Assembly (NCBI GenBank): GCA_028279245.1
Contig: JANQOE010000062.1
Location: 1-64,000 of the forward strand
DNA from: Alphaproteobacteria bacterium
Lineage (GTDB): Bacteria; Pseudomonadota; Alphaproteobacteria; UBA6615
Direction: 5' to 3'
DNA length: 64,000 nucleotides
Shown here: in pieces, positions 1,236 through 14,723 of the stretch
Layout of the letters: the number at the start of each line of letters is the position of its first letter
Position numbering within the stretch: position 1 is the first letter of the stretch
Notes under the pieces: model-generated
The model's database searches: none
The model's input: the letters and a program-made list of their open reading frames with translations, nothing else
What the model was told of the DNA's origin: nothing
Program-made: the position numbers and the translations under genes

Positions 1236-1991
1236 TCACGTCTCCTTTGGCGCTTGATCCTTCAGCCACGCTTCATATTCCGGCCACGCGTCTTGGTGCA
1301 GTGGGTAATAACGCTGCAGCGACTCACCGGCCGATAGCTTCGCGCGGGAGAACGGCTCCCAGCCATGATCCTTATGCGCCTTGTCAATCACCGCTTCGGC
1401 GAGCGCGACCGGTACGCAAACCGCGCCGTCATCGTCCGCCACAATAATGTCGCCCGGGACCACGGTGACCCCGCCGCAAGCGACCGTTGTATTCACCGCG
1501 TAAGGCATAAGACGGGTCTGGGCATGATAGTTTGGCGTCGCGCCGCGCACCCACAGCGGAATGTCGAGCAACCGCACCTTGGAGATGTCGCGGACACAAC
1601 CGTCGATCACCACCCCGGCGCCGCGGCGGCCCTTGAAGTAGGTCATCATCATGTCGCCGAAAATGCCGGAGGTCATGTCGCCCCGCGCGTCGACCACCAC
1701 GACGTCGCCTTCCTCGACCTGGTAGAGCACATGCCGGTGCAGCTGGGTTTCGACGTCCGCATACTCCCGGTCGTCATACAGGTCTTCGCGCTTCGGCATC
1801 ATCTGCAGGGTCAGCGCCGGGCCGGCCATGGCCTTGCCGCTGTGCTGACTGACCGGGCCGGTGATCGCGCAGTTGCGCAAGCCCATATGCGACAGTGTCG
1901 CGCTGACCGTTGCCGCGCCGGCCTGTCTGACCTGTTCGACCAGGTCCGCCGGCGGCCGCGTTATCTTTGGAATATCCATATTTGCTTGCAT
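1236..1991 (-). CDS. RraA-family protein, probable 4-hydroxy-4-methyl-2-oxoglutarate/oxaloacetate-type aldolase
   Basis: RraA-fold proteins in catabolic loci are usually class II pyruvate aldolases or decarboxylases acting on branched 2-oxo acids; a minority modulate RNase E. The family signature D-G-x2-R-D is present (D130, G131, R134, D135, in GVVIDGCVRD), the arginine and aspartate being the residues used for substrate and metal binding in the aldolases. At 251 residues it is somewhat longer than RraA itself, as is usual for the catabolic group. Start at 1991 is preceded by GGGGGAGGCAAGG. It is divergent from the enolase-superfamily gene at 2181, and the pair fits a dehydrate-then-cleave route for a sugar acid. 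The aldolase role is inferred from context; the substrate is unknown. Confidence 0.85.
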   Translation of the reverse strand: MQANMDIPKITRPPADLVEQVRQAGAATVSATLSHMGLRNCAITGPVSQHSGKAMAGPALTLQMMPKREDLYDDREYADVETQLHRHVLYQVEEGDVVVVDARGDMTSGIFGDMMMTYFKGRRGAGVVIDGCVRDISKVRLLDIPLWVRGATPNYHAQTRLMPYAVNTTVACGGVTVVPGDIIVADDDGAVCVPVALAEAVIDKAHKDHGWEPFSRAKLSAGESLQRYYPLHQDAWPEYEAWLKDQAPKET

Positions 1992-2180: not shown

Positions 2181-3500
2181 ATGCCAAACAGCACAAACGG
2201 CGCAATCGAGAATGCGGTCAACACCAACTCGCGGCCCAGCGACCTGCGCATCACCGATATCCGCGTCGCGCCCCTGAGGTGCCAGGGCTACCATCCGATC
2301 GTCAGGATCGATACCAACCAGGGTATCTATGGACTAGGCGAAGTGCGCGATGGCGCCCACCAGGACACGGCGCTGCGACTGAAACATCTGCTCATCGGCC
2401 AAAACCCCTGTCACATCGAGTATCTGTTCCGTTCCATCAAGCGCTATGGCGGCGACAGCCGCGAAGCCGGCGGCGTCTGCGGTCTCGAAATCGCGCTCAT
2501 GGACTTGGCCGGGAAAGCCTATGGCGTTCCTTGCTACCAACTGCTCGGCGGCAAGTTCCGCGACCGCGTGCGCATCTACGGCGATACGCCGACCCCGGCG
2601 GACATGTCGCCCGAAGGCTTTGTCGAGGCGGTGAAGACCCGGCTGGCCCTCGGTCTCACCTTCATCAAATTCGACTTGTCGGCCCATCTGTTCGAACGCA
2701 CGCCGCGGTCGCTGGTCGGGTCGGCGACCAAGTATGAGTATCCGCAATACCGTCAATGGTACGTGCCGGGCAGCGGCGCCGGCGCCCGCATCAGCCAGCG
2801 GGGCCTCGAACTCGCCGCCGGCATCTGCGCCGCGGTGCGCGAGGCCGTCGGCGACGAGGTCTCCCTCTGCACCGACCATTTCGGCGAAGGGTTTGTAACG
2901 GCTGATGAGGCCATACGCATCGGCCAGGCGATCGAACCCTACAACCTGGCCTGGGTGGAAGACGTCTTGCCCTGGACCGATATCGCCGGCCACAAAAAAG
3001 TCGCGGACGCGCTGCTGACGCCGGTCGCAGCGGGCGAGGACCTCTACTTGTTCGAGGGCTTCCGGGAGGCGATCGAGACCAAGGCCTTCGACATCATCCA
3101 CCCCGACATGCTGACCTCGGGCGGTCTGACCGAGACCAAGAAGATCGCCGACCACGCCGAACGCTATGGCATTCCGACGGCGTTGCACGCTTGTTGCTCA
3201 CCCATCGGCATGATGGCGAATGTCCACCTCGGCGCCTCGATCGCCGCGCTCACCGCGGTCGAGCACCATGCGCTGGACATCCCCTACTGGACCGATCTGG
3301 TGACCGGCCTCGACGCCGATTACCTCAGCGAAGGCTACGTCACGGTGCCGGACGCGCCCGGCCTCGGCGTCGACCTCAACGAGGAGGTCATGCGCGAACA
3401 CCTTGCGGCAGGTGAGGACTACTTCGCCCCCACCGACGAGTGGGATCAGGAACGGGTCGGCTTCCTCGGGCACCACGTCCGCGCGACACACGTCCGCTAG
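2181..3500 (+). CDS. Enolase-superfamily sugar-acid dehydratase (mandelate racemase/muconate lactonizing subgroup)
   Basis: This superfamily abstracts the proton alpha to a carboxylate and typically dehydrates aldonic or aldaric acids to 2-keto-3-deoxy acids. Visible residues fit: metal ligands D232 (CTDHF), E260 (WVED) and E286 (AGED), a K-x-D motif at K163 on the second barrel strand, and a candidate general base H336 in ALHACCSPIG. Length (439) is ordinary, with an N-terminal extension of about 20 residues. GGAGG stands ahead of the ATG. The upstream neighbour is the divergent RraA-type aldolase; the downstream neighbour is the convergent fused ABC permease. Exact substrate cannot be read from the sequence; galactonate- or mannonate-like acids are possible. 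Confidence 0.88.
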   Translation: MPNSTNGAIENAVNTNSRPSDLRITDIRVAPLRCQGYHPIVRIDTNQGIYGLGEVRDGAHQDTALRLKHLLIGQNPCHIEYLFRSIKRYGGDSREAGGVCGLEIALMDLAGKAYGVPCYQLLGGKFRDRVRIYGDTPTPADMSPEGFVEAVKTRLALGLTFIKFDLSAHLFERTPRSLVGSATKYEYPQYRQWYVPGSGAGARISQRGLELAAGICAAVREAVGDEVSLCTDHFGEGFVTADEAIRIGQAIEPYNLAWVEDVLPWTDIAGHKKVADALLTPVAAGEDLYLFEGFREAIETKAFDIIHPDMLTSGGLTETKKIADHAERYGIPTALHACCSPIGMMANVHLGASIAALTAVEHHALDIPYWTDLVTGLDADYLSEGYVTVPDAPGLGVDLNEEVMREHLAAGEDYFAPTDEWDQERVGFLGHHVRATHVR

Positions 3501-3513
3501 ACCGAGGTTGATT

Positions 3514-3546
3514 GGCGGCGAAAGGGTATCAGCCCTTCACGCCGCC
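3514..3546. terminator. Hairpin between convergent genes, possible bidirectional terminator
   Basis: GGCGGCG-AAAGGG pairs with CCCTT-CA-CGCCGCC around a short loop; the right arm overlaps the last codons of the fused permease gene. There is no clear T-run on either side, so termination is only a suggestion from its position between two convergent ends. Confidence 0.3.
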
Positions 3547-5490
3547 GATCGTTAGCCCGTCGGCCAGATAGCGCTGGGCATAGATGTAAAGCACCGCGAC
3601 CGGAATGGCGGTCAGCAAGGACGCCGCCATCAGCTTGCCCCAAGGCAGGATGTCGCCCACCACCATCGACTGCAGGCCGATCGGCAACGTCCGCAGCGAT
3701 TCACTGGTGATGAACACGAAGGCGAACAGGAACTCGTTCCACGCCGTGGTGAACGCGACCAGCGTGACCGCCAGCAACGCCGGCGCCGCCAGCGGCAAGG
3801 TGATCTTCCACATCGCATAGAACCGGGAGGCACCGTCGATCATCGCCGCTTCCTCAAGTTCCACCGGAATCGACCGGAAGTAGCCGAGCATCACCCAGGT
3901 CGCGAACGGCAACAGGAAGGTGGGGTAGGTGACGATCAGCGCCGCGTAGGTATTGATGATGCCGATATCGGTCAACGTCTGATACAGCGGGATGAACAGC
4001 ATCGTTCCCGGCAGCAGGTAGGTGATCAGCAAGAACGTCGTCAGCAACCCGGCGCCCGCGAACTTGAGCCGTGACAACGCGTAGGCGGCCAACGCCGCGA
4101 GAAAGACCGAAATCACTGTACTGACGGTCGCGACGATAATCGAATTGAGCAGCCACAGCAGGAACGGCGTGTCGCCGATCAACGACGTGTACTGTTCCAG
4201 CGTGAAGGGGTCGGGCCAGAAGACCGACTCGCGCTCGCTGATCTGCGGCGTGGTCTTCAGCGAGGTTACCAGGACCCAGTAGAAGGGGAACAGCACGAAC
4301 AGTAGGAACGGCACCAACACCAACAGCCGGCCGACCATCCCCCATCGCCGGCGCTCTTCGCGCCTAATCAACACCTGTTTCTGTTGGCGCGGCAACAGGG
4401 CACGAATGGCATTACCCACCAACTCGAAGAACTTGACCAGCAGTTCCGCCGGTAGAAAGACCAAGTCCAGGAACGCGCTGAAAGCCCGTTTCGCCACCTT
4501 CGCGACGCGATCGCCGAGGCCGGGTCCCTTTCTCGTCGGGACAGTCCGGTCTTCCTGGCGCATGAATCTGGCCAGCATCCAGATAATAACCGCCATCAGT
4601 GGCGCCACGCTAAACGCGATGGCGACGCCCGGACCGTATTGCAGCGAGCGGATCGCCTTTTCGTAGGCGAGGATGGAATACAGCTTGGTGACGCCACTTG
4701 GGCCACCGCCCGTCATCAGGAAGATCAGGCCGAACTGATTGAAGGTCGAAATGAACGACAGCAACAGCGTGACGATGATGACGAATCGCATGCCCGGCAG
4801 GGTGACGTGCCGGAAGCGTTGGACCGCGGTTGCACCGTCGACCTCCGCCGCCTCCAACTGCTCGCGGTCGATGGCCTTCAGACCGGCCAACAGCAACAAC
4901 ACGTAGAAGGGAATACCCTTCCACACATTCACCGCGATCACGCTGCCCATCGCCAGATCGGGGTCGGACAGCCAGCCCTGCGGCTGGTCGATGATACCGG
5001 CGCCCTGCAGGATCGGATTGAGACCGCCGAAAATCGGATCGTAGATGCTCTTCCAGGCCAGCGCCGTCACGATCTCGGGCACGATCCAAGGCAGCAGCAT
5101 GATCCCGGACAGCACATTGCGGTAAGGGATACGGCTGTTGAGCACCAGCGCGATGGTCATGCCGGTCGCGAACTTGATGGTCAGCGACCAAATGGTGAAC
5201 TGCAGGGTGGCCTGTATCGACAGCAGGTAATCACTGCTGGTCAGCAGCCGCGTGTAATTCCGGAAGCCGACGAAAACCGTCTGGCCAGAGATGAAATTGA
5301 GCGCCGTCGTGCTCAGCAGAATGGCTTCGAAAAACGGCCAGAAGATCAGCCCCAACATGATCAGCACCATGGGGAACACGAACACGGATGCGATCTTCCA
5401 GTCGCGTCCCAGGAGCAATCGCAGCCGCCGCTGCGTCGGGATGGAGACAGCGCGGGCCGGTGAACCCGGGACCGTCGCCTGACTAACCAT
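3529..5490 (-). CDS. ABC sugar transporter permease, MalF-like and MalG-like subunits fused in one protein
   Basis: Inner-membrane part of a CUT1-type carbohydrate importer. Residues about 30-310 form a complete MalF-type permease with the EAA loop at about 213-232 (EAAEVDGATAVQRF, ending HVTLP). Residues about 385-653 form a complete MalG-type permease with a second EAA loop at about 546-566 (EEAAMIDGASRF, ending KITLP). They are joined without any stop or frame change by about 70 residues (310-380) containing an amphipathic helix and a basic stretch. These subunits are normally separate proteins of about 290 residues each. The cognate binding protein lies upstream at 5606. No MalK-type ATPase is present in the window, so the energising subunit must be encoded elsewhere. 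No good ribosome site precedes 5490. Confidence 0.92.
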   Translation of the reverse strand: MVSQATVPGSPARAVSIPTQRRLRLLLGRDWKIASVFVFPMVLIMLGLIFWPFFEAILLSTTALNFISGQTVFVGFRNYTRLLTSSDYLLSIQATLQFTIWSLTIKFATGMTIALVLNSRIPYRNVLSGIMLLPWIVPEIVTALAWKSIYDPIFGGLNPILQGAGIIDQPQGWLSDPDLAMGSVIAVNVWKGIPFYVLLLLAGLKAIDREQLEAAEVDGATAVQRFRHVTLPGMRFVIIVTLLLSFISTFNQFGLIFLMTGGGPSGVTKLYSILAYEKAIRSLQYGPGVAIAFSVAPLMAVIIWMLARFMRQEDRTVPTRKGPGLGDRVAKVAKRAFSAFLDLVFLPAELLVKFFELVGNAIRALLPRQQKQVLIRREERRRWGMVGRLLVLVPFLLFVLFPFYWVLVTSLKTTPQISERESVFWPDPFTLEQYTSLIGDTPFLLWLLNSIIVATVSTVISVFLAALAAYALSRLKFAGAGLLTTFLLITYLLPGTMLFIPLYQTLTDIGIINTYAALIVTYPTFLLPFATWVMLGYFRSIPVELEEAAMIDGASRFYAMWKITLPLAAPALLAVTLVAFTTAWNEFLFAFVFITSESLRTLPIGLQSMVVGDILPWGKLMAASLLTAIPVAVLYIYAQRYLADGLTIGGVKG

Positions 5491-5605: not shown

Positions 5606-7006
5606 TCAAGGTTGGGCGATGCCGCCTTCCTCGAAGATCTGCACCATCTTGTTGTGCGCATCCGTGACCGCCTCTGCCGGCGACATGCGTCCAGCGATAA
5701 GGTTGCCGGTCATCTGCTCGGCCACTCCCTGGGCGCGGATCGCGTCGATCGCCGCATTCGGATTTGCCGGCCAGGACTGACCAAGGAACGGATCCGCGAC
5801 GCTGACCTGCTCTTTGATGATCGCGAAGTTCGGATCGGCGGCGATCAGCTCGTCGGTCCACAGGTTCTCATAGGCAGGCATGAACAGACCGCCGGCCACT
5901 TCCGACATCCGGTTGAAGTTCGCCGGATCCAGCAAGTCCAGGGCAAGCTGCTTCGCCAAGTCGACATTCGGCGCGCCTTTGAAGACCGTCAGCCAGCCGG
6001 TGACGTTGCCGCCATCGCGGTGGTCGCCGTTGATGGCGCGCGGCGCCGGCAACAGCACGATGTCCTTGAAGAAGGACACTTCGTCCCGCTTGGACTGTGC
6101 ATAGACGCTGAACGCGTTGTGCGTGTAGCCGATGTTTCCGGCGAGGTACGCCTCGTTGTTGGAGATGTCGCCCCAGCTTTCGACGCCTGGCGGCAGCATT
6201 GCCGCGAACCGGCCGTTACGGTCATAGGTCTCGCGCAGCCATTCAGCCGCCGCCACGGTTTCCGGCGTGTCGAACTGGACAATCATGCCGGTTTCGTCGG
6301 TGTAGTGCCCGCCGAACGACTGGATGAGGGTCGTCACGAAGCCAAATCCGTCGCCGCTCTGATTGGGGGTCAGGCCCCATCCCCAGAACTCACTGTCGGG
6401 ATCGGAAATCGCCAGCGCGGCATCGCGCCGCTGGTCATAAGTGACGAGGCTCTTGGGATCGATGCCCTTCTCGGCCAGCTTATCGCCGCGGATAAAGTGG
6501 CCCGTCGTGCCGGCAAGGAACGGCACGGCCATCCAACGGTCATTGAACCTGCCTTGTTCCTCGGCATTGATGCCAGGCATGATGTTGCCGTAGCGCTTGA
6601 CCGCCTCGTCGACCACGTCGGTCATGTCTTCAAGCAGGCCCAGCAAGTTCATCTGCGCGATGCTGACGTTGCTGGTGTAGGCGATGTCGGGCGGATTGCC
6701 GGCGTTCACCGCGGCCGTCATCTTGCCGAGGAAATCACCGAATGATTCCGGGTTGGTGGTCGAGATATCGAGCTCGGCACCGGACCGCGACGCAAACTCG
6801 CCAACGGTATCTCGGAAGATGATCTGTGCCTGTTCGAAATACTCCGTACGGTGAATGACGGTCAGCTTACCGGCTGCACCTTCTGGCAGGTCAGCATCTT
6901 GGGCGAAGGCCGGGAAGCCGCTGCCGGCGGCAAGGACGCCAGCACCCGTCGCGGCAGACCGGCGCAGCATCTGTCGGCGGGTTAAATTGCCTCTCATGAT
7001 CTTCAT
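5606..7006 (-). CDS. ABC transporter sugar-binding protein (family 1), Tat-exported
   Basis: Periplasmic solute receptor for the fused permease downstream. The N terminus carries a twin-arginine signal (TRRQMLRRSAATG, hydrophobic stretch, then FPAFA-Q as the likely cleavage site). The rest has the length (466) and layout of extracellular solute-binding family 1, the maltose/sn-glycerol-3-phosphate type. Start at 7006 has GGGAGAAC just before it. It is divergent from the enolase-superfamily gene at 7258, with an inverted repeat (7021-7046) right behind its start. Use of the Tat rather than the Sec pathway is uncommon for this family. Substrate unknown; a sugar acid or its oligomer would fit the neighbours. 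Confidence 0.87.
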   Translation of the reverse strand: MKIMRGNLTRRQMLRRSAATGAGVLAAGSGFPAFAQDADLPEGAAGKLTVIHRTEYFEQAQIIFRDTVGEFASRSGAELDISTTNPESFGDFLGKMTAAVNAGNPPDIAYTSNVSIAQMNLLGLLEDMTDVVDEAVKRYGNIMPGINAEEQGRFNDRWMAVPFLAGTTGHFIRGDKLAEKGIDPKSLVTYDQRRDAALAISDPDSEFWGWGLTPNQSGDGFGFVTTLIQSFGGHYTDETGMIVQFDTPETVAAAEWLRETYDRNGRFAAMLPPGVESWGDISNNEAYLAGNIGYTHNAFSVYAQSKRDEVSFFKDIVLLPAPRAINGDHRDGGNVTGWLTVFKGAPNVDLAKQLALDLLDPANFNRMSEVAGGLFMPAYENLWTDELIAADPNFAIIKEQVSVADPFLGQSWPANPNAAIDAIRAQGVAEQMTGNLIAGRMSPAEAVTDAHNKMVQIFEEGGIAQP

Positions 7007-7046: not shown

Positions 7047-7257
7047 TGATTTTGATCGCGGTCTCTCTACCTCCCGCGTAGACCTTAGTATGGCATTGAT
7101 AGCCCACCCCAGTTCAACCCCAAATCCAGTCGGCAACACCGCATTGCCACATGAGCTTGCTTTCGGCGGCCGGGCTCACGCCTTATGGTCCGGTGTCGGC
7201 GACCTACTATGAGGATTGCCGCACTGCAGCATGGCGTCGGAGAGGGAGCCCAACAGA

Positions 7258-8415
7258 GTGAAAATCACATCCGTAAAGACGGCCGCCACGAGCGGACACT
7301 GCATGCACCTTTGGGTGCGGGTTGAAACCGATGCCGGCGTCACCGGGATAGGCGAATGCGTGCATGGCGGCCACGCTTCTATTGCGCTCATCAAAGAACT
7401 TGAGCCGCGGCTGGTCGGGCTCGACCCCTTCGCCATCGACAAGATCTTCGAGGATATCCGCCGCAGCCTGGTGTTCGAGGGTGGCTTCGCGGGTGCACTC
7501 ATTACCGCGCTGACCGGTATCGAAATCGCCCTGTGGGACCTGAAGGGCAAGGCGCTCAACGTGCCCGTGTACGAACTGCTCGGTGGCAAGTTCCGTGACA
7601 AGGTCCGCGTCTATGCCGACTGCGAGGTGTCACCGGGCCTCAACCTCGATGAAGCCAAACGTGTTGTCGACGAGGTTCTGGAGCGCGGCTTCACCGCCTT
7701 GAAGATCGACCTCGATATCTTTGCCTACGGCCATACCGGCAGCGAGACGGAGCATTACGTCAAAGACAAATTCAACATGACGCCAAACCGCTGGGAACAT
7801 GAGCGGATGGTCAAGCTGGCGGAAACGGTTGTCGCAGCAGCCGGCCCAGAAATCGAAGTGGCGACCGACCTGCATACTCTTCTGGACAAGCATAGCGCGA
7901 TCCGGCTCGCCCGCGACCTCGAACCGCTGAAACTGATGTGGCTTGAAGAACCGGTCCCACCGGAGAACATCGACACCATGCGGGAGATCACCGCGGCCAC
8001 GTCGACCCCCATCTGCGCCGGCGAGAATCTCTACCTCAGGCACGGGTTTCGCGACCTCATCGAGAAACAGGCAGTCGACATCATCATGCCCGACATCCCG
8101 AAGTGCGGCGGGCTGTCAGAGTGCCGCAAGGTCGCCAACATGGCGGAGATTTATTCGATCCCGTTTGCACCGCACAATGTCTCCTCGCCGATCGGCACCA
8201 TGGCCTCAGCCCATGTCTGCGCCACCGTGCCGAACTTCCTGGTTCTCGAATTCCACTGGACCAAACGCGACTACTGGACAACGATCATCCAGGAAAAGAC
8301 GGACATCATCCGGGATGGTCATATCGAGATGACGGATCGTCCCGGGATCGGCCTGGAACTCGACGAAGAGGTGGCGCGACAGCACCAGTATCCGGGCACC
8401 ACCTGGTTCGAATAG
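7258..8415 (+). CDS. Second enolase-superfamily sugar-acid dehydratase
   Basis: Same reaction class as the gene at 2181 but only distantly similar to it. With the GTG start at 7258 the protein is 385 residues and opens MKITSVKT, the usual beginning for the family; GAGGGAG stands 9 bases ahead. In-frame ATGs at 7216 and 7231 would add unconserved residues. Metal ligands D204 (ATDLH), E230 (WLEE) and E256 (AGEN), a K-x-D motif at K149 and a base candidate H306 (APHNVSSPIG) resemble galactonate-dehydratase relatives. It is divergent from the binding protein at 7006 and followed 44 bp later by a phosphotransferase-fold gene. Specificity is not determinable here. Confidence 0.87.
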   Translation: MKITSVKTAATSGHCMHLWVRVETDAGVTGIGECVHGGHASIALIKELEPRLVGLDPFAIDKIFEDIRRSLVFEGGFAGALITALTGIEIALWDLKGKALNVPVYELLGGKFRDKVRVYADCEVSPGLNLDEAKRVVDEVLERGFTALKIDLDIFAYGHTGSETEHYVKDKFNMTPNRWEHERMVKLAETVVAAAGPEIEVATDLHTLLDKHSAIRLARDLEPLKLMWLEEPVPPENIDTMREITAATSTPICAGENLYLRHGFRDLIEKQAVDIIMPDIPKCGGLSECRKVANMAEIYSIPFAPHNVSSPIGTMASAHVCATVPNFLVLEFHWTKRDYWTTIIQEKTDIIRDGHIEMTDRPGIGLELDEEVARQHQYPGTTWFE

Positions 8416-8459
8416 CCGACTGAGGCGCCATGGCGTGAGCGTGTGTTCTGGCTTCGATC

Positions 8460-9293
8460 ATGAGTATCGATAAGTCAGAACTCGGGCCTTTGCTGGCACG
8501 GGGCCGTACAGCGGACATCTACGCCCTTAGTCGCGATGCCGTCATCAAGGTTCTGCGGACCGGTTTTAGAGACGAACTGATCCAGATCGAGGCCGACAGG
8601 ACCCGAGCCGTCGCCGGCCTGGGCTTGCCCGCACCACGTGTCCTCGACGTGACCTCTGTTGCTGGTCGCCCGGCACTGGTCGTCGAACGTGTCGACGGCG
8701 AGAGCATGCTCAGCCGATTGACCCATCACCCCCAGCAACTGGTCACGCTGGCGCGGCTGCAGGCGGACCTGCATGCCAATCTCACCAGTGTCCGTGCCGC
8801 CAGTTTCGGTGCCGAAAGCCTACCCCCACTGACAGCCCGATTGACCGACCGCATCGGTTCGGCCGACGCACTGTCGGCGGACCTAAAACAGGGACTGCTG
8901 AATGGGCTTCTGAGCTTGAGCGGCGAGGACTGCCTATGCCACGGCGATTTTCACCCCGACAACATCATTCTCGGTGAGAAGGGGCCAGTCATCATCGATT
9001 GGCTGGATGCCACCAGCGGACCGGCCGCCGCGGACGCAGCCCGCAGCCATCTGCTGCTCTCGCTCGCCGCCCCACCCCAAGGACAGAGTCTGCTGCGACG
9101 AGCCGCATTGAACTCGGCCCGCACACTCTTTCGGCGTGCATACCTCAGGCGCTACCGCCAGCAAACCGGACTTCCCGCCGATGCACTCGCAGCCTGGATG
9201 CCGATAGTCGCCGCAGCACGCCTCGCCGAGGGCGTCAACGGCGAGGCCGACCGGCTCGTCGCCTTGGCTGAAAACGCTCGAAACCTCTATTGA
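8460..9293 (+). CDS. Aminoglycoside-phosphotransferase-fold kinase, likely small-molecule kinase
   Basis: APH/choline-kinase fold: a lysine in VIKVL (K30), the catalytic loop CHGDFHPDN with D163 as base, and the metal-binding D180 in IIDWLD. Length 277 is normal. Despite the family name, members in sugar-acid loci commonly phosphorylate sugars, amino sugars or choline-like compounds, and nothing here argues for drug resistance. It follows the dehydratase gene on the same strand and could phosphorylate the 2-keto-3-deoxy product, but this is inference. The ribosome site is weak. Its last bases overlap the convergent heparinase-like gene by 7. Confidence 0.8.
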   Translation: MSIDKSELGPLLARGRTADIYALSRDAVIKVLRTGFRDELIQIEADRTRAVAGLGLPAPRVLDVTSVAGRPALVVERVDGESMLSRLTHHPQQLVTLARLQADLHANLTSVRAASFGAESLPPLTARLTDRIGSADALSADLKQGLLNGLLSLSGEDCLCHGDFHPDNIILGEKGPVIIDWLDATSGPAAADAARSHLLLSLAAPPQGQSLLRRAALNSARTLFRRAYLRRYRQQTGLPADALAAWMPIVAAARLAEGVNGEADRLVALAENARNLY

Positions 9294-11080
9294 ATCCGCA
9301 GAGCCAGACGCTGACCCGCGACCGGGACAAGCACGCGCCACAGTTGTGTCGGCCATGACCACAGCAGACGCTCGTCGGCGATCGGGATGGCTTCGCTGCG
9401 CGGCGCGCCGCCGCCGTCAATCGCTATCGCACCCAGGCCACCGACCTTGATCGCATCCCCCTCGATGACTGGCTCCTCCGCGAACATCAAGGACAGTGTC
9501 GCCGGGCGATCGCTGTCAAAGGTGTCGACGACCTCAATATCCCGGCCCTTAGTGAAGTGGACGCATCGCCGGTAGCTGCGGAGGCCGGCCTCGGCGGGGT
9601 AGGCGCCGGCCAACTCCATCTCCATCCGCGCAGCCGCTGGGCTCAACTCCGCCTTCACATTGGCCGCCGCGAAGTCTCGGCCATCCCGCTGCATCACGTC
9701 ATCGAAGGTGAGCAAGTTGTGGTAGGCCGACTGCATCGTCCAGATCTCGTAGCGGCTGCCGGAGAAGGTCTTTGCGGTGTAGGTCTCGACCCCGACGTCG
9801 ATGAGGAACGGGCGCCCATCCTTGTAGAGCGTCACGCTGCCGACGTCGTTGTGGTTGTGGCTTTCCCCGTTATGCCCGGCCTTGACCGCGAGCGCATAGC
9901 GGTCGTCGCGCGCAATCATCAGACCGATACTTTCGTAGAGGATGTCGCGCTTTTCCGGTTCGCTGGCGGCGCGCTCGCGCATCGCCTGCGCGTTGAACGC
10001 GGCCTGTAGCCGGTAGAACAGATTGTATTCGTCTGGCAGGTCCTTTTCGTCCGACTTCGCCCAGTCGATCACGGCAAAGTCAGTCAGTGCGTCCGATCCG
10101 ACAGCGAGGCCGAAGAGATACTCGCGTGCGGTACATCGCCCGACCACCGCCGAACTGTCGGAGAAATTGAAGTACTGATTATCGTCGACGTGCATGTTGA
10201 CGATGTATTCGGCCATGTTGCGCAGCTTTGGTTCGCGCCACAGCCCAGCAAACACATCGGGGGCCACCGCGGCCAGGACAACCAAGGCATTGAACAGCGT
10301 GAGACTGCCCTTCCGATAGTACATCACGCCTTCTTCGCAGCCGCCGTCATCCCCGAACACGCTGAGATACTCGTCGAGGCTCTTCGCCGCTTTCTCGATC
10401 ACGGCGCGCCTGGTCTGTTGATCGGTCGGGCGCGTCAGCACGGTCAGCAGCACGTTCTGCGTGCACCAACCGGTCCAGTTGTTCAACGGGTCACCTTCGC
10501 CGCCCATCCACCAGAAATGCGCATCGTGATACGGCTGAACAATCCGCGCCTGCAGTTCGCGGTCGATCCGGCGGACGATTTCCGGGCTTATGCGGTCAAG
10601 GCTCTCCGCCAGCAGGGTCGCAGCGACGGCAAGTTGCGCGCCGGTCTCGCTCGCGAACAAGTCGATGACCGGCGCAGTCGTATCGGGCAGGGGGAATCGG
10701 CGACCGCCTCTGGCATAGCAGTTGTGTGCGGCGATCTGCCAGCCGCTTTCCTCGCAGATGAGCCAGATGCCATCGACGATTTGATCGAGGAAGCGGCCTT
10801 CATTCTCCACACATTCGCCGAGGATCAACGCGTTCAGCTGGTTGCGGCGCCCTTGATACGCCGCCTCGAAACGTGACCGGTTGCCGTTGCGTGTGAACGC
10901 CATGTGGAGCGTTGCCGGAAGCGCCGGCCACGGAGTACGAGCAACCTCCTCGGCGCGTGCTATCAGTTGATCCCGAGTCTCAACGGGCAGCGAGGTCCAC
11001 GCCTGCCGGTCCGTCGCCGGTGGTATCTCAGCAAAATCCGGAATCTCCGGCGGCAGATGAGGCAACCGTTCCGAGAACAT
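9287..11080 (-). CDS. Heparinase II/III-like polysaccharide lyase
   Basis: Lyase-type domain architecture: an alpha-helical toroid-like N-terminal part (to about residue 370) and a C-terminal beta-sheet heparinase II/III domain with the signature stretch GESHNHNDVGSVTLY around residue 405-425, where the histidine and asparagine lie at the active site. These enzymes cleave uronic-acid polysaccharides or oligosaccharides by beta-elimination. No signal peptide is visible, so it probably acts on imported oligosaccharides in the cytoplasm. AGAGGATCGA precedes the ATG. It is the last gene of the minus-strand operon that begins at 20631. The polymer (alginate, glycosaminoglycan, exopolysaccharide) is unknown. 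Confidence 0.85.
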   Translation of the reverse strand: MFSERLPHLPPEIPDFAEIPPATDRQAWTSLPVETRDQLIARAEEVARTPWPALPATLHMAFTRNGNRSRFEAAYQGRRNQLNALILGECVENEGRFLDQIVDGIWLICEESGWQIAAHNCYARGGRRFPLPDTTAPVIDLFASETGAQLAVAATLLAESLDRISPEIVRRIDRELQARIVQPYHDAHFWWMGGEGDPLNNWTGWCTQNVLLTVLTRPTDQQTRRAVIEKAAKSLDEYLSVFGDDGGCEEGVMYYRKGSLTLFNALVVLAAVAPDVFAGLWREPKLRNMAEYIVNMHVDDNQYFNFSDSSAVVGRCTAREYLFGLAVGSDALTDFAVIDWAKSDEKDLPDEYNLFYRLQAAFNAQAMRERAASEPEKRDILYESIGLMIARDDRYALAVKAGHNGESHNHNDVGSVTLYKDGRPFLIDVGVETYTAKTFSGSRYEIWTMQSAYHNLLTFDDVMQRDGRDFAAANVKAELSPAAARMEMELAGAYPAEAGLRSYRRCVHFTKGRDIEVVDTFDSDRPATLSLMFAEEPVIEGDAIKVGGLGAIAIDGGGAPRSEAIPIADERLLWSWPTQLWRVLVPVAGQRLALRIQ

Positions 11081-11103
11081 TCGATCCTCTATATGTCGCG
11101 GTC

Positions 11104-12954
11104 TTAGCGGCGATCCAGGTCCAAGTCCGGTGCGCCCCAGCCGATAACCAGCTCGGCACTGTCCCGCATTTCATCCAACGCGGCGTCGTCGGGCCGGGCC
11201 GGTGGGTTGTCCCAGACCGCTGCATCCGCCGAAGCGACGACAGCGCAGCCAAGGGTCGTCGTGCCGGCATCGATCTGCCCCCGCAACTGCGGGACCCAGG
11301 TGCGTGGGAACATCAGGCTGGTGTTCGGCAACGCGGCCTTAGCAACACCGGCGCGTGTATCGTCGGAAAGGTCGCGGATCCCGCTGATCTCATCCGTACG
11401 CTGCACCAGCGCAAAGCCGCTGTCAGCCTCGGTCCGGACCACGCCATCCTCATCGCGATCGATTGCGAAACCCCCTTCGGCGGTCTCCAAAGCGCGGTCC
11501 GTCTGTATGCGGTGTACGCGAACATGATACGGCGGTGTCGCGATCAGCCAGGTTTCGACCGACACCCCCGCCATCGGCGACCAGCGGCAGTAGAGGTAAT
11601 CGTCGCCGATACGGGCGTCATCATTGCTTTCGCGGATGCGGTAGTGACGGCCGTCGTCGCTGAAGGCCAACATGCTGTCGAAGGACCCGTTGGCGAAACA
11701 GGCGTCACTGCTTTCCACGCTAAAGCCGTGCCGGGTCGAGTAGGCAAACTTCGCGTACTTCGCCGCGCCGTGGCGCAACCGCAGGCTTTCTTGGCCGGCC
11801 GACAACGCGATCGTCGCGCTCTGGTCGCCCGCGATGACCATGCCCGGCAACCGTTGGGCGACCGGCTTGCTCGGCGCAACCGGCGGAATCTCCTCGGCCT
11901 GCCAGAACGGGTGGTCCTCTGCGCACGCCAGTACGGCGAACGGCTTGAGGGCCCAGTAAGGAGAGCCGGGCGAGTTGTATTCCTCGGCCATATGGTATTG
12001 GGGATAGGCATAACCGACGGACAACACCCCGTCGCGGTCGGCAATCGGCTGCCGCTGCCACCAGCGCAGGTTGTTGAGCAACAAGCCCTTCGTTTCGCCC
12101 CAAGGCAAAGCATCGACATCCGCATAGGCCAGGGCGCCCCAAAACCCGGCGTGGGCAAAGCGGTAGGTCAGACTGCGGCCGAACGGCAGCGCCGAGCCGT
12201 CGGCGGCAAACCAGGCCTTGTAGTCCCGCGCAAACTCTGCGGCGCGTTCGCGGTATCTGGTCGCGCGTTCGCTGTCGTCCGGACGCAGCGTCGCGTAGAT
12301 CAGGCCATAGAAATGAATGGCAAACGGAATGTAGTGCTCGAGCCGCCGCACCTTGCCGTCGCGATACCAGCCATCCTGCAGGTAGTAGCCTTCGATCGCG
12401 TCGAGATGCGGCGTCAGCCGATCCCAGTCAAACGACCAGCCGACGCGGTCGAGGCCGAGCGCGACTAGCACGGGGAAGAAATGCCAATTGTTCGGCGCCG
12501 TCTCGAGGCTAAGGATGTGCTCGAGCCACCGGCCCAGATTTTCCCGCGCCGCACCGTCGAGAGCGCTGAACAACTCTTCCGGCAGCAGCGCGAGCCCGAA
12601 GCCCAGTGCCGCGGACTCGACGATCCGTTGATTGGTGTCGGCCGGCGTGCCCCAGAAGTCCTCGTGGTCGGGGTTCGCCCCATTCGCCAGCCCGCGCTGT
12701 AATAGCTGCATGTGGGGGAAGTCGCCGCCCCCGGCGACCAACGGTGCAATGCCCCAAAGCGGCCGCGCAAAACCCTCCAGGTCAGCCGCCGCGGGTTGGA
12801 AATGGGCACCGGTCGCGCCGAGTCGGACGCGGCCCGAGCCGGGGCTGAAATAGGGGAGGAGCGGGTTGAATACGTCGCGGACCGCATTTTGCAGGTCGGC
12901 CCGAGATTGGAGCGGATTGCCGTGCAAGGGGTTGGCCGCGAGATAGCTATCCAT
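11104..12954 (-). CDS. DUF2264 domain protein, probable cytoplasmic glycan-processing enzyme
   Basis: The N-terminal two thirds match the DUF2264 pattern (alpha/alpha-toroid, with FGRSLTYRFA and repeated tryptophan-rich helices) and the remainder is beta-rich. The family often accompanies polysaccharide lyases and unsaturated-glycan hydrolases, but no catalytic activity is agreed on. No signal peptide. Start: I prefer the ATG at 12954 (GGAAAAG ahead, opening MDSYLAANPLHG); a TTG at 12987 overlapping the upstream stop is also in frame. It sits between the transporter ATPase and the heparinase-like lyase, 23 bp before the latter, so it should act on the same imported compound. Confidence 0.78.
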   Translation of the reverse strand: MDSYLAANPLHGNPLQSRADLQNAVRDVFNPLLPYFSPGSGRVRLGATGAHFQPAAADLEGFARPLWGIAPLVAGGGDFPHMQLLQRGLANGANPDHEDFWGTPADTNQRIVESAALGFGLALLPEELFSALDGAARENLGRWLEHILSLETAPNNWHFFPVLVALGLDRVGWSFDWDRLTPHLDAIEGYYLQDGWYRDGKVRRLEHYIPFAIHFYGLIYATLRPDDSERATRYRERAAEFARDYKAWFAADGSALPFGRSLTYRFAHAGFWGALAYADVDALPWGETKGLLLNNLRWWQRQPIADRDGVLSVGYAYPQYHMAEEYNSPGSPYWALKPFAVLACAEDHPFWQAEEIPPVAPSKPVAQRLPGMVIAGDQSATIALSAGQESLRLRHGAAKYAKFAYSTRHGFSVESSDACFANGSFDSMLAFSDDGRHYRIRESNDDARIGDDYLYCRWSPMAGVSVETWLIATPPYHVRVHRIQTDRALETAEGGFAIDRDEDGVVRTEADSGFALVQRTDEISGIRDLSDDTRAGVAKAALPNTSLMFPRTWVPQLRGQIDAGTTTLGCAVVASADAAVWDNPPARPDDAALDEMRDSAELVIGWGAPDLDLDRR

Positions 12955-12983
12955 GTCTGTCTTTTCCGTATCTAGGGCGGGGG

Positions 12984-14723
12984 TCAACCGCGCAGGCGCG
13001 ACTGCTTCGGATCGGCGCGCGGCACGGCGGCGAGGAGTTCTTGGGTGTAGGCGTGTTGCGGGTTGTCGCAGATGGATTGGGACGGTCCGATTTCGACGAT
13101 TTCGCCGCGGCGCATGACCGCCATGCGTTCGCAGAAATAGCGGATAACCCCGATGTCGTGACTGATGAAGATGAAGCTGAGCCCAAGGCGAGACCGCAGT
13201 TTGAGCAACAGGTCGAGCACCTGGGCCCGCAGACTGCCATCGAGCGCGGAGGTCGCTTCGTCCGCCAGAACCAGACGCGGATTAAGCGCGATGGCGCGGG
13301 CGATGCCGATCCGCTGCCGTTGCCCGCCGCTGAATGCGTGCGGATAACGGTCCATGACGTCGGCTGGCAGTTCGACGCTTTCCAACAGGTCGGCGACCCG
13401 GCTCCGAAGTTCGGACTTGGGGCAGGCGCGGTTGACGATCATCGGTTCCGCAACGATCTGCTCGACCGTCATGCGCGGGTTCAGCGACGCGAACGGATCC
13501 TGAAAGATCATGCGGATTTCGGTGTACAGCGAGCGGTCGCCGAACCCGCCGCGCCCGCACAAGTCAGTTGTGCTGCCGTCGCCGCGCGTGAACATGGCGC
13601 TGCCGGAATCGACTTTGTAGAGGCCAACCAGACAGCGGGCGAGGGTGGTCTTGCCGGAACCGCTCTCGCCAACTACGCCGAGCGCCTCACCGGCGCGAAG
13701 ATCGAAGGAAACGTCGCGCAAGGCATGGACCACGGCGCGATGCCGCCGCAGCATCCCGTGCGTCGTGCCGAACGCCAGGTTTAGGTTCCGCACCTGCAGG
13801 ATCGGCTCTTCGCTTAACGTGCCGGCGACCTTCGCCGCCGGGCCGGATTCCATCAACCGCGCCGCACCGATCAGGTCTTGTGTGTGCGGGTGCTGTGGCC
13901 GGCTGAAGATCTGATCAACGTCGCCGTATTCGAGTACCTTGCCGTCGCGCATAACCGCGACATGGTCCGCCATCTCCGCGACGACGCCCATGTCGTGCGT
14001 GATGAACAGCACCGCCATGCCATAATCGCGCTGCAGCGACTTGATGAGCTTGAGGATCTCCGCCTGGGTCGTGACATCGAGGGCGGTCGTCGGTTCGTCG
14101 GCGATCAGCACTTTCGGCTTGTTGGCGAGCGCCATGGCAATCATGGCACGTTGCCGCATGCCCCCACTGTATTGGAAAGCGTAGCGGTCGACCGCGATCT
14201 CCGGATCGGGAATCTGCACCTGTTTGAGCAGCGAGATCGCCTGTTCCCGCGCTTCCTTCTTTTCGATCGGCTGATGCAGCCGGATCGCCTCGATAATCTG
14301 CGAACCGATCGTGTGAACCGGGCTGAGCGAACTCATCGGTTCCTGGAAGATCATCGATATATGTCCCCCGCGGACAGCACGGATCGCCGGCCCATAGGGG
14401 TCGAGGTCACTCAGATGTATTGGTGCGTCGTCGCCAGGCTTGAACGAGATCCGCCCGCCGACGATGCGGCCGGGCTTGACGATGTTGAGGATCGACCGGG
14501 CAGTCACGCTCTTGCCGCTGCCGCTTTCGCCGACCACGCACAACGTGTCGCCGGCGCGCAGGGAGAGCGAGACCTTATCGACCGCCTTCAGGTTGCCACG
14601 GCGCATCGTGAAGTGGGTCTCTAGGTCGACGATCGCCAGGATCTCGTCAGCGACCTCCGGGGCAGGGACCGCGGCCGACTGGTCGGCCGGCTCCAGGGCA
14701 ATAGCCGTTTCGCGCGGCGTCAT
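12984..14723 (-). CDS. ABC transporter ATPase, two nucleotide-binding domains fused (DppD-DppF type)
   Basis: Energises the permeases at 14720 and 15854. Two complete ATPase units: the first has Walker A GESGSGKS near residue 65-72, signature YSGGMRQR and Walker B VLIADEPT; the second has GESGSGKTT near 350-360, FSGGQRQR and [10 protein letters not shown]. Fused forms of about 550-600 residues are well known in oligopeptide-class importers of proteobacteria (GsiA/YejF type), so the fusion itself is not unusual. ATGA overlap with the preceding permease (14720-14723) shows translational coupling. In this operon the cargo is more likely an oligosaccharide than a peptide. Confidence 0.93.

Follow-up and report, generated by a model that had tools for sequence, protein, structure and literature searches.

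Organization of the locus

We analyzed a 64,000-nucleotide stretch of DNA (the window), which begins at base 1 of contig C129. Near its start lies a permease gene that the ORF list records as one minus-strand open reading frame, with an ATG start and 653 codons, flanked by genes for a solute-binding protein (SBP) and for enzymes of sugar metabolism (Table 1). The Pfam family PF00528 covers two separate stretches of the encoded protein (E = 3.1e-31 for the protein). In NCBIfam, the N-terminal half (TMD1) matches the MalF, UgpA and GlcT models and the C-terminal half (TMD2) the MalG, GlcU and UgpE models. All of these matches lie under the curated equivalog cut-offs and consequently assign each half at the family level only.

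Table 1. Features of the fused permease locus and of long-linker homologues. Positions refer to the window unless a locus is named; enzyme homologues were counted among 51 sequences that include the window.
Feature	Position	Strand	Basis
RraA-like aldolase family protein	1236..1991	-	family matches; homologues in 11/51 sequences
Second MR_MLE enzyme, convergent with the permease gene	2181..3500	+	family matches; homologues in 30/51 sequences
Fused CUT1-type permease, 653 aa	3529..5490	-	single ORF, family matches, alignment of 49 fused homologues, fold
TMD2, MalG/SugB-like unit, residues 385-653	3532..4338	-	PRK10998, GlcU, UgpE; SugB, MalG, AlgM2
EAA loop of TMD2, residues 546-566	3793..3855	-	read from protein sequence
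Linker, residues 313-384	4339..4554	-	alignment, charge/hydropathy, model helix, codon-position test
TMD1, MalF/SugA-like unit, residues ~34-312	4555..5391	-	PRK10999, UgpA, GlcT; SugA, MalF, AlgM1; fold
EAA loop of TMD1, residues 213-233	4792..4854	-	read from protein sequence
Extracellular solute-binding protein, upstream of the permease, co-directional	5606..7006	-	SBP_bac_8, SBP_bac_1
MR_MLE enzyme, galactonate/mannonate dehydratase-like, divergent from the SBP gene	7216..8415	+	family matches; homologues in 32/51 sequences
Long-linker fused permeases, class of L005 (Anaerolineales record)	L100:5004-7253, L103:5535-7859, L104:5514-7838, L110:1427-3586		L110 by ORF length only

Each half carries a short segment that, from general knowledge of these permeases, we take to be its EAA loop. 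Across an alignment of 49 fused sequences, residues E213, D218, G219, A220 and P232 are invariant in the first loop, as are A548, A549, D552, G553 and P566 in the second. The protein thus bears the marks of the CUT1 family: two BPD_transp_1 units whose best matches are MalF-like and MalG-like, an EAA loop in each half and a genetic link to an SBP_bac_1/SBP_bac_8 binding protein. The usual CUT1 form, with two separate permease genes, is not strictly defining and is absent here, both units lying in one ORF. The original prediction of two CUT1 permease units, each with its own EAA loop, in a single 653-residue chain is confirmed by the ORF, the Pfam and NCBIfam matches and the alignment. An AlphaFold model of the fused permease has moderate confidence (mean pLDDT 75.5, pTM 0.78) and is weak in the linker.

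An SBP homologue lies upstream of the fused gene on the same strand at all 50 related loci, at varying distances and mostly as the next gene. At L043 it is only a contig-cut piece, 5.8 kb away, and at L044 the nearer of two SBP genes is 1.9 kb away. The importer's cargo is probably a carbohydrate, likeliest a sugar acid or its oligomer, as suggested by the neighbouring genes only, which vary between loci. A search for the substrate through solved SBPs was set aside because its matches were weak (best E = 3e-09). Beside the sugar catabolic genes lies an APH-type phosphotransferase-like kinase (8460-9293, plus strand), with a homologue at one of the 50 related loci. Farther on, at 9287-12987 (minus strand), a heparinase II/III-like gene adjoins a DUF2264 gene; neither has a homologue at the 50 related loci.

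The fusion is conserved among relatives

Out of 97 relatives found by a scan of named genomes, we examined the best 80 loci. The original prediction had proposed a search for the same fusion in relatives, and it does recur: it is uninterrupted in 48 of these 80 loci, at 50-75% identity to the window protein, and none of the 48 is broken by an in-frame stop within the match. Close relatives with two genes, named beforehand as the observation that would count against a real fusion, did not appear; the 51 loci of named genomes that reach at least 50% identity comprise 48 fused loci, one frameshifted locus (L047) and two contig-cut ends (L038 and L051), the last two being pieces of a single gene within one bin. 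In the 29 more distant loci (L052-L080; 22-42% identity per half), the two units always occupy separate ORFs. Fused and split forms overlap in identity: fused proteins extend down to 42% (G613) and a split half reaches 44% (L087). Searched individually, 11 of 11 named genomes carried the fusion, and the genome of L041 carries two. Within the genus of L020 (a Devosia record), the fusion is found in 16 of 19 genomes, 15 times intact and once over two contigs; the remaining three have no match at E ≤ 1e-100.

These counts bear on whether an assembly or sequencing error joined two separate genes. The genome is a draft of 137 contigs and a frameshift does occur in one relative, L047, which lies in a MAG contig. 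Against this, the same single frame recurs in 48 loci of other records, named strains among them, where the linkers measure 58-75 residues, and 15 intact copies are found in one genus. The chance that an error created the fusion is negligible, and we rejected that explanation on the strength of intact fused loci across records and within one genus.

Origin and distribution of the fused permease

We next considered the two halves in separate trees. In the TMD1 tree, the fused rows form one clade (support 100/100) made up of 57 fused rows, one of which duplicates the window's own, plus a single contig-cut fragment; in the TMD2 tree they again form one clade (support 98), with 57 fused rows and two contig-cut fragments. 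As judged from these half-trees, the fusion arose once, in a single event, and the fused permeases are an old, conserved family present in several bacterial groups. In both trees the fused clade is followed by two split pairs, L087 and L088, whose genomes belong to the window's family and class. Secondary fission was not seen among the rows read: the apparently split L101, L102 and L051 within the fused clade are genes cut at contig ends. Equal open-frame values hinted at further fusions (C77 of the window's own genome, G038, G006 and G008), and on reading these proved to be separate genes.

The deepest fused rows in the half-trees are Chloroflexota records and genomes from the class to which L005, an Anaerolineales record, belongs. 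In that class, 19 of 298 genomes carry the fusion, 14 as one full-length match and five in two pieces. Of these five, L100, L103 and L104 read as one frame, L110 is one ORF of 719 codons and G689 lies on two contig ends. The fused form also occurs in Devosia-type Alphaproteobacteria and in Trueperaceae. In the TMD2 tree, the window protein clusters with rows from Devosia, Pelagibacterium and Wenxinia; in the TMD1 tree, its nearest rows are a Devosia row and other alphaproteobacterial and Chloroflexota rows. Among the matches listed for 39 other genomes, 23 of them from the window's family, none is full-length. A search of 385 genomes of the window's class, with few candidates scored per genome, gave a match at E ≤ 1e-150 in one genome only, the window's own. 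Lateral acquisition of the fused permease into the window's genome is the simplest reading and a likely one. Carriage on a plasmid was considered and set aside: 2724 plasmid records gave matches, none at 60% identity or higher.

The linker between the two halves

The original description of a basic, amphipathic linker of about 70 residues is accurate for the window protein, whose linker spans ~72 residues, has a net charge of +8 and contains an amphipathic/hydrophobic stretch. Across the 49 fused sequences the linker is 58-75 residues long and its net charge averages +3.7, ranging from -1 to +9, so that 'basic' describes most linkers, not all. In the same sequences its mean identity to the window protein is 25%, as compared to 70% and 73% for the TMDs, and its only invariant residue is P347; its 19 residues of highest hydrophobicity have a mean Kyte-Doolittle value of 1.74. 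Over 58 close pairs, the ratio of third-position changes to the mean of positions 1 and 2 is 1.87 in the linker, compared to 5.58 and 5.98 in the TMDs. By this codon-position pattern, the linker is translated and under relaxed coding constraint.

Internal initiation before TMD2 would additionally yield a separate MalG-like subunit, giving two products from one gene. An ATG does stand near the TMD2 start in 38 of the 49 sequences, but it follows a Shine-Dalgarno-like tetramer in only four of the 49, and coding is continuous through the linker, which together leave a second product improbable.

For the single-chain product, the AlphaFold model places one helix in the linker (residues 325-365, pLDDT about 54-66). 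In MalF and MalG, both termini are cytoplasmic. Consequently, the number of membrane crossings made by the linker should be even, and a surface or re-entrant helix would fit. The linkers of L100, L103 and L104 are longer, with 161-162 residues and approximately four hydrophobic stretches in a 19-residue Kyte-Doolittle scan (KD19); the first of these stretches is long and may hold two helices, and the last runs into the start of TMD2. We tentatively suggest, as one of the less probable readings, that the linker might be a membrane-embedded module with its own evolution and not a passive tether. It would usually be a proline-kinked hydrophobic helix next to the coupling helices, either within the inner leaflet or at its surface. 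In one branch of genomes from the class of L005 (L100, L103 and L104, and L110 by length), it would supply about four additional TM segments between the halves, with a possible role in tuning or gating the importer. In G613, two fused permeases lie in tandem (L105:5498-7519 and 7629-9617), with linkers of 100 and 88 residues.

Comparison with known transporters

The MalFGK2 fold is the textbook heteromeric importer. By profile, the solved relatives of the window protein are SugB/SugA, MalG/MalF, AlgM2/AlgM1, PotC/PotB and two molybdate-type permeases, and no MalF-MalG fusion is listed among them. The closest by both profile and fold is the LpqY-SugABC trehalose importer (7cad, 8ja7), which likewise has two non-identical halves; Foldseek ranks SugA first. 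SugA and SugB, with 29-32% identity in the fold alignments, are separate chains and have no linker. E. coli MalFGK2 resembles the window protein in its fold and in the order of a MalF-like followed by a MalG-like unit, but its MalF and MalG are two chains, and MalF there carries additional TM helices at its N-terminus as well as a large loop in the periplasm.

Permeases of the FbpB/PhnU2/ThiP branch also hold two type I units in one chain and belong to a different branch. The Foldseek alignment with FbpB from Thermus (9j4r_A), a one-chain protein, spans 582 columns and has a TM score of 0.52 by query length, an rmsd of 7.6 and 18% identity. Membership of the window protein in this branch was rejected, its scores being 85.7 bits for PhnU2 (TIGR03262; cut-off 593.25) and 30 for ThiP (NF006954; cut-off 821). 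One-chain double permeases are therefore already known, and here the kind occurs in the CUT1 branch. Other ABC parts that are often encoded apart also occur fused, and passages of PMC11466899 describe the RbsA double ATPase, the ArtRQP SBP-permease and the one-chain TMDs of type V exporters; these join other parts or belong to other transporter types. Among the open PMC papers listed by full-text searches, none reports a MalF-MalG (CUT1) fusion in its title or the opening of its abstract, which does not imply its absence from print.

The probable ATPase partner and a proposed mechanism for import

We now turn to the ATPase that would energize the fused permease. The original prediction held that no MalK-type gene lies nearby, and none is found in the window or on contig C129, which ends 3.5 kb from the permease. 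A profile search of the contig gave no TOBE_2 match, and its ABC ATPases are 27-34% identical to the MalK query. Locating MalK-type genes genome-wide, a check proposed at the outset, gave 25 TOBE_2 matches and ~28 MalK-like ATPase places (cut-offs of 37% identity and 190 bits). Two of these places carry an in-frame stop within the matched part, and at least one (C15:23743) resembles ferric/phosphonate-type ATPases more closely. Among the 31 permease matches listed for this genome, 22 are CUT1-like loci; a MalK-like gene lies within 5 kb at 10 of them and not at 12, the fused permease being among the 12, several of which are near contig ends that may hide some genes.

In relatives, a MalK-type gene lies within 1.3 kb of the SBP gene at five loci (L001, L006, L011, L013 and L045) and farther off at L010, L046 and L048. 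In the stretches examined, many of them short, 42 of 50 loci have no MalK-type gene with at least 45% identity to that of L001. No separate permease row from the five loci appears among the tree rows listed. These neighbouring genes support a MalK-type ATPase as the most likely partner. The own-genome MalKs closest to that of L001 share 56-57% identity with it, on C16 and C73, and each lies within 1.5 kb of other permeases, so that neither stands out as a dedicated partner.

The further claim that the permease must recruit a shared ATPase is sound in part. An ATPase encoded elsewhere is plausible, given the 12 CUT1-like loci of 22 with no MalK within 5 kb, and passages of PMC4519317 describe one ATPase, MsmK, as common to several sugar importers. 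'Must' is too strong, because the contig end is close by and a MalK-type gene accompanies the cassette in five relatives. The same two observations would suit a dedicated, unshared MalK, either unlinked or just past the contig end. However, the best own-genome matches to the L001 MalK reach only the identity given above and sit by other permeases. Furthermore, the MalKs of L006, L011, L013 and L045 are 48-69% identical to that of L001, with L011 and L013 at just 48%, and so form no tight orthologue group. We regard a dedicated partner as unlikely, though with a real share of the probability.

Our preferred reading, to which we assign a probability of roughly 0.85, is that this single chain provides the membrane core for a type I (MalFGK2-type) ABC importer, which takes up carbohydrate through the upstream SBP, works with a MalK-type dimer whose gene is probably elsewhere and shared, and has its linker on the cytoplasmic side. 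The ligand captured by the SBP would be a carbohydrate, probably a sugar acid or an oligosaccharide related to one. Together, the MalF-like and MalG-like halves would build the usual pseudo-symmetric pore, and the EAA coupling helix of each half would dock on one subunit of the ATPase dimer. The linker would be a membrane-surface helix bridging the MalF half's C-terminus and the MalG half's N-terminus; the benefit of the fusion may be that cognate halves are always paired. The ATPase would probably be one that this genome also uses for other importers.

A natural one-chain version of the MalFGK2 type, with a single origin, offers a defined 1:1 core for structural work and permits half-specific mutants without the mixing of subunits. 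It also offers a test of why permease halves stay apart in most sugar importers. For annotation, the lesson is that a 'permease' of 650 residues can represent a complete transporter core.

The window's own genome (G000) has two more one-chain double permeases, at C15:22238-23653 (L096:516-2741) and C68:32033-33448 (L097:965-2644), for both of which the best model is PhnU2, below its cut-off. At C67:32734-34974 of the same genome, a permease unit and two ABC ATPase units lie in open frames of equal length (1104 codons), perhaps a permease-ATPase-ATPase fusion.
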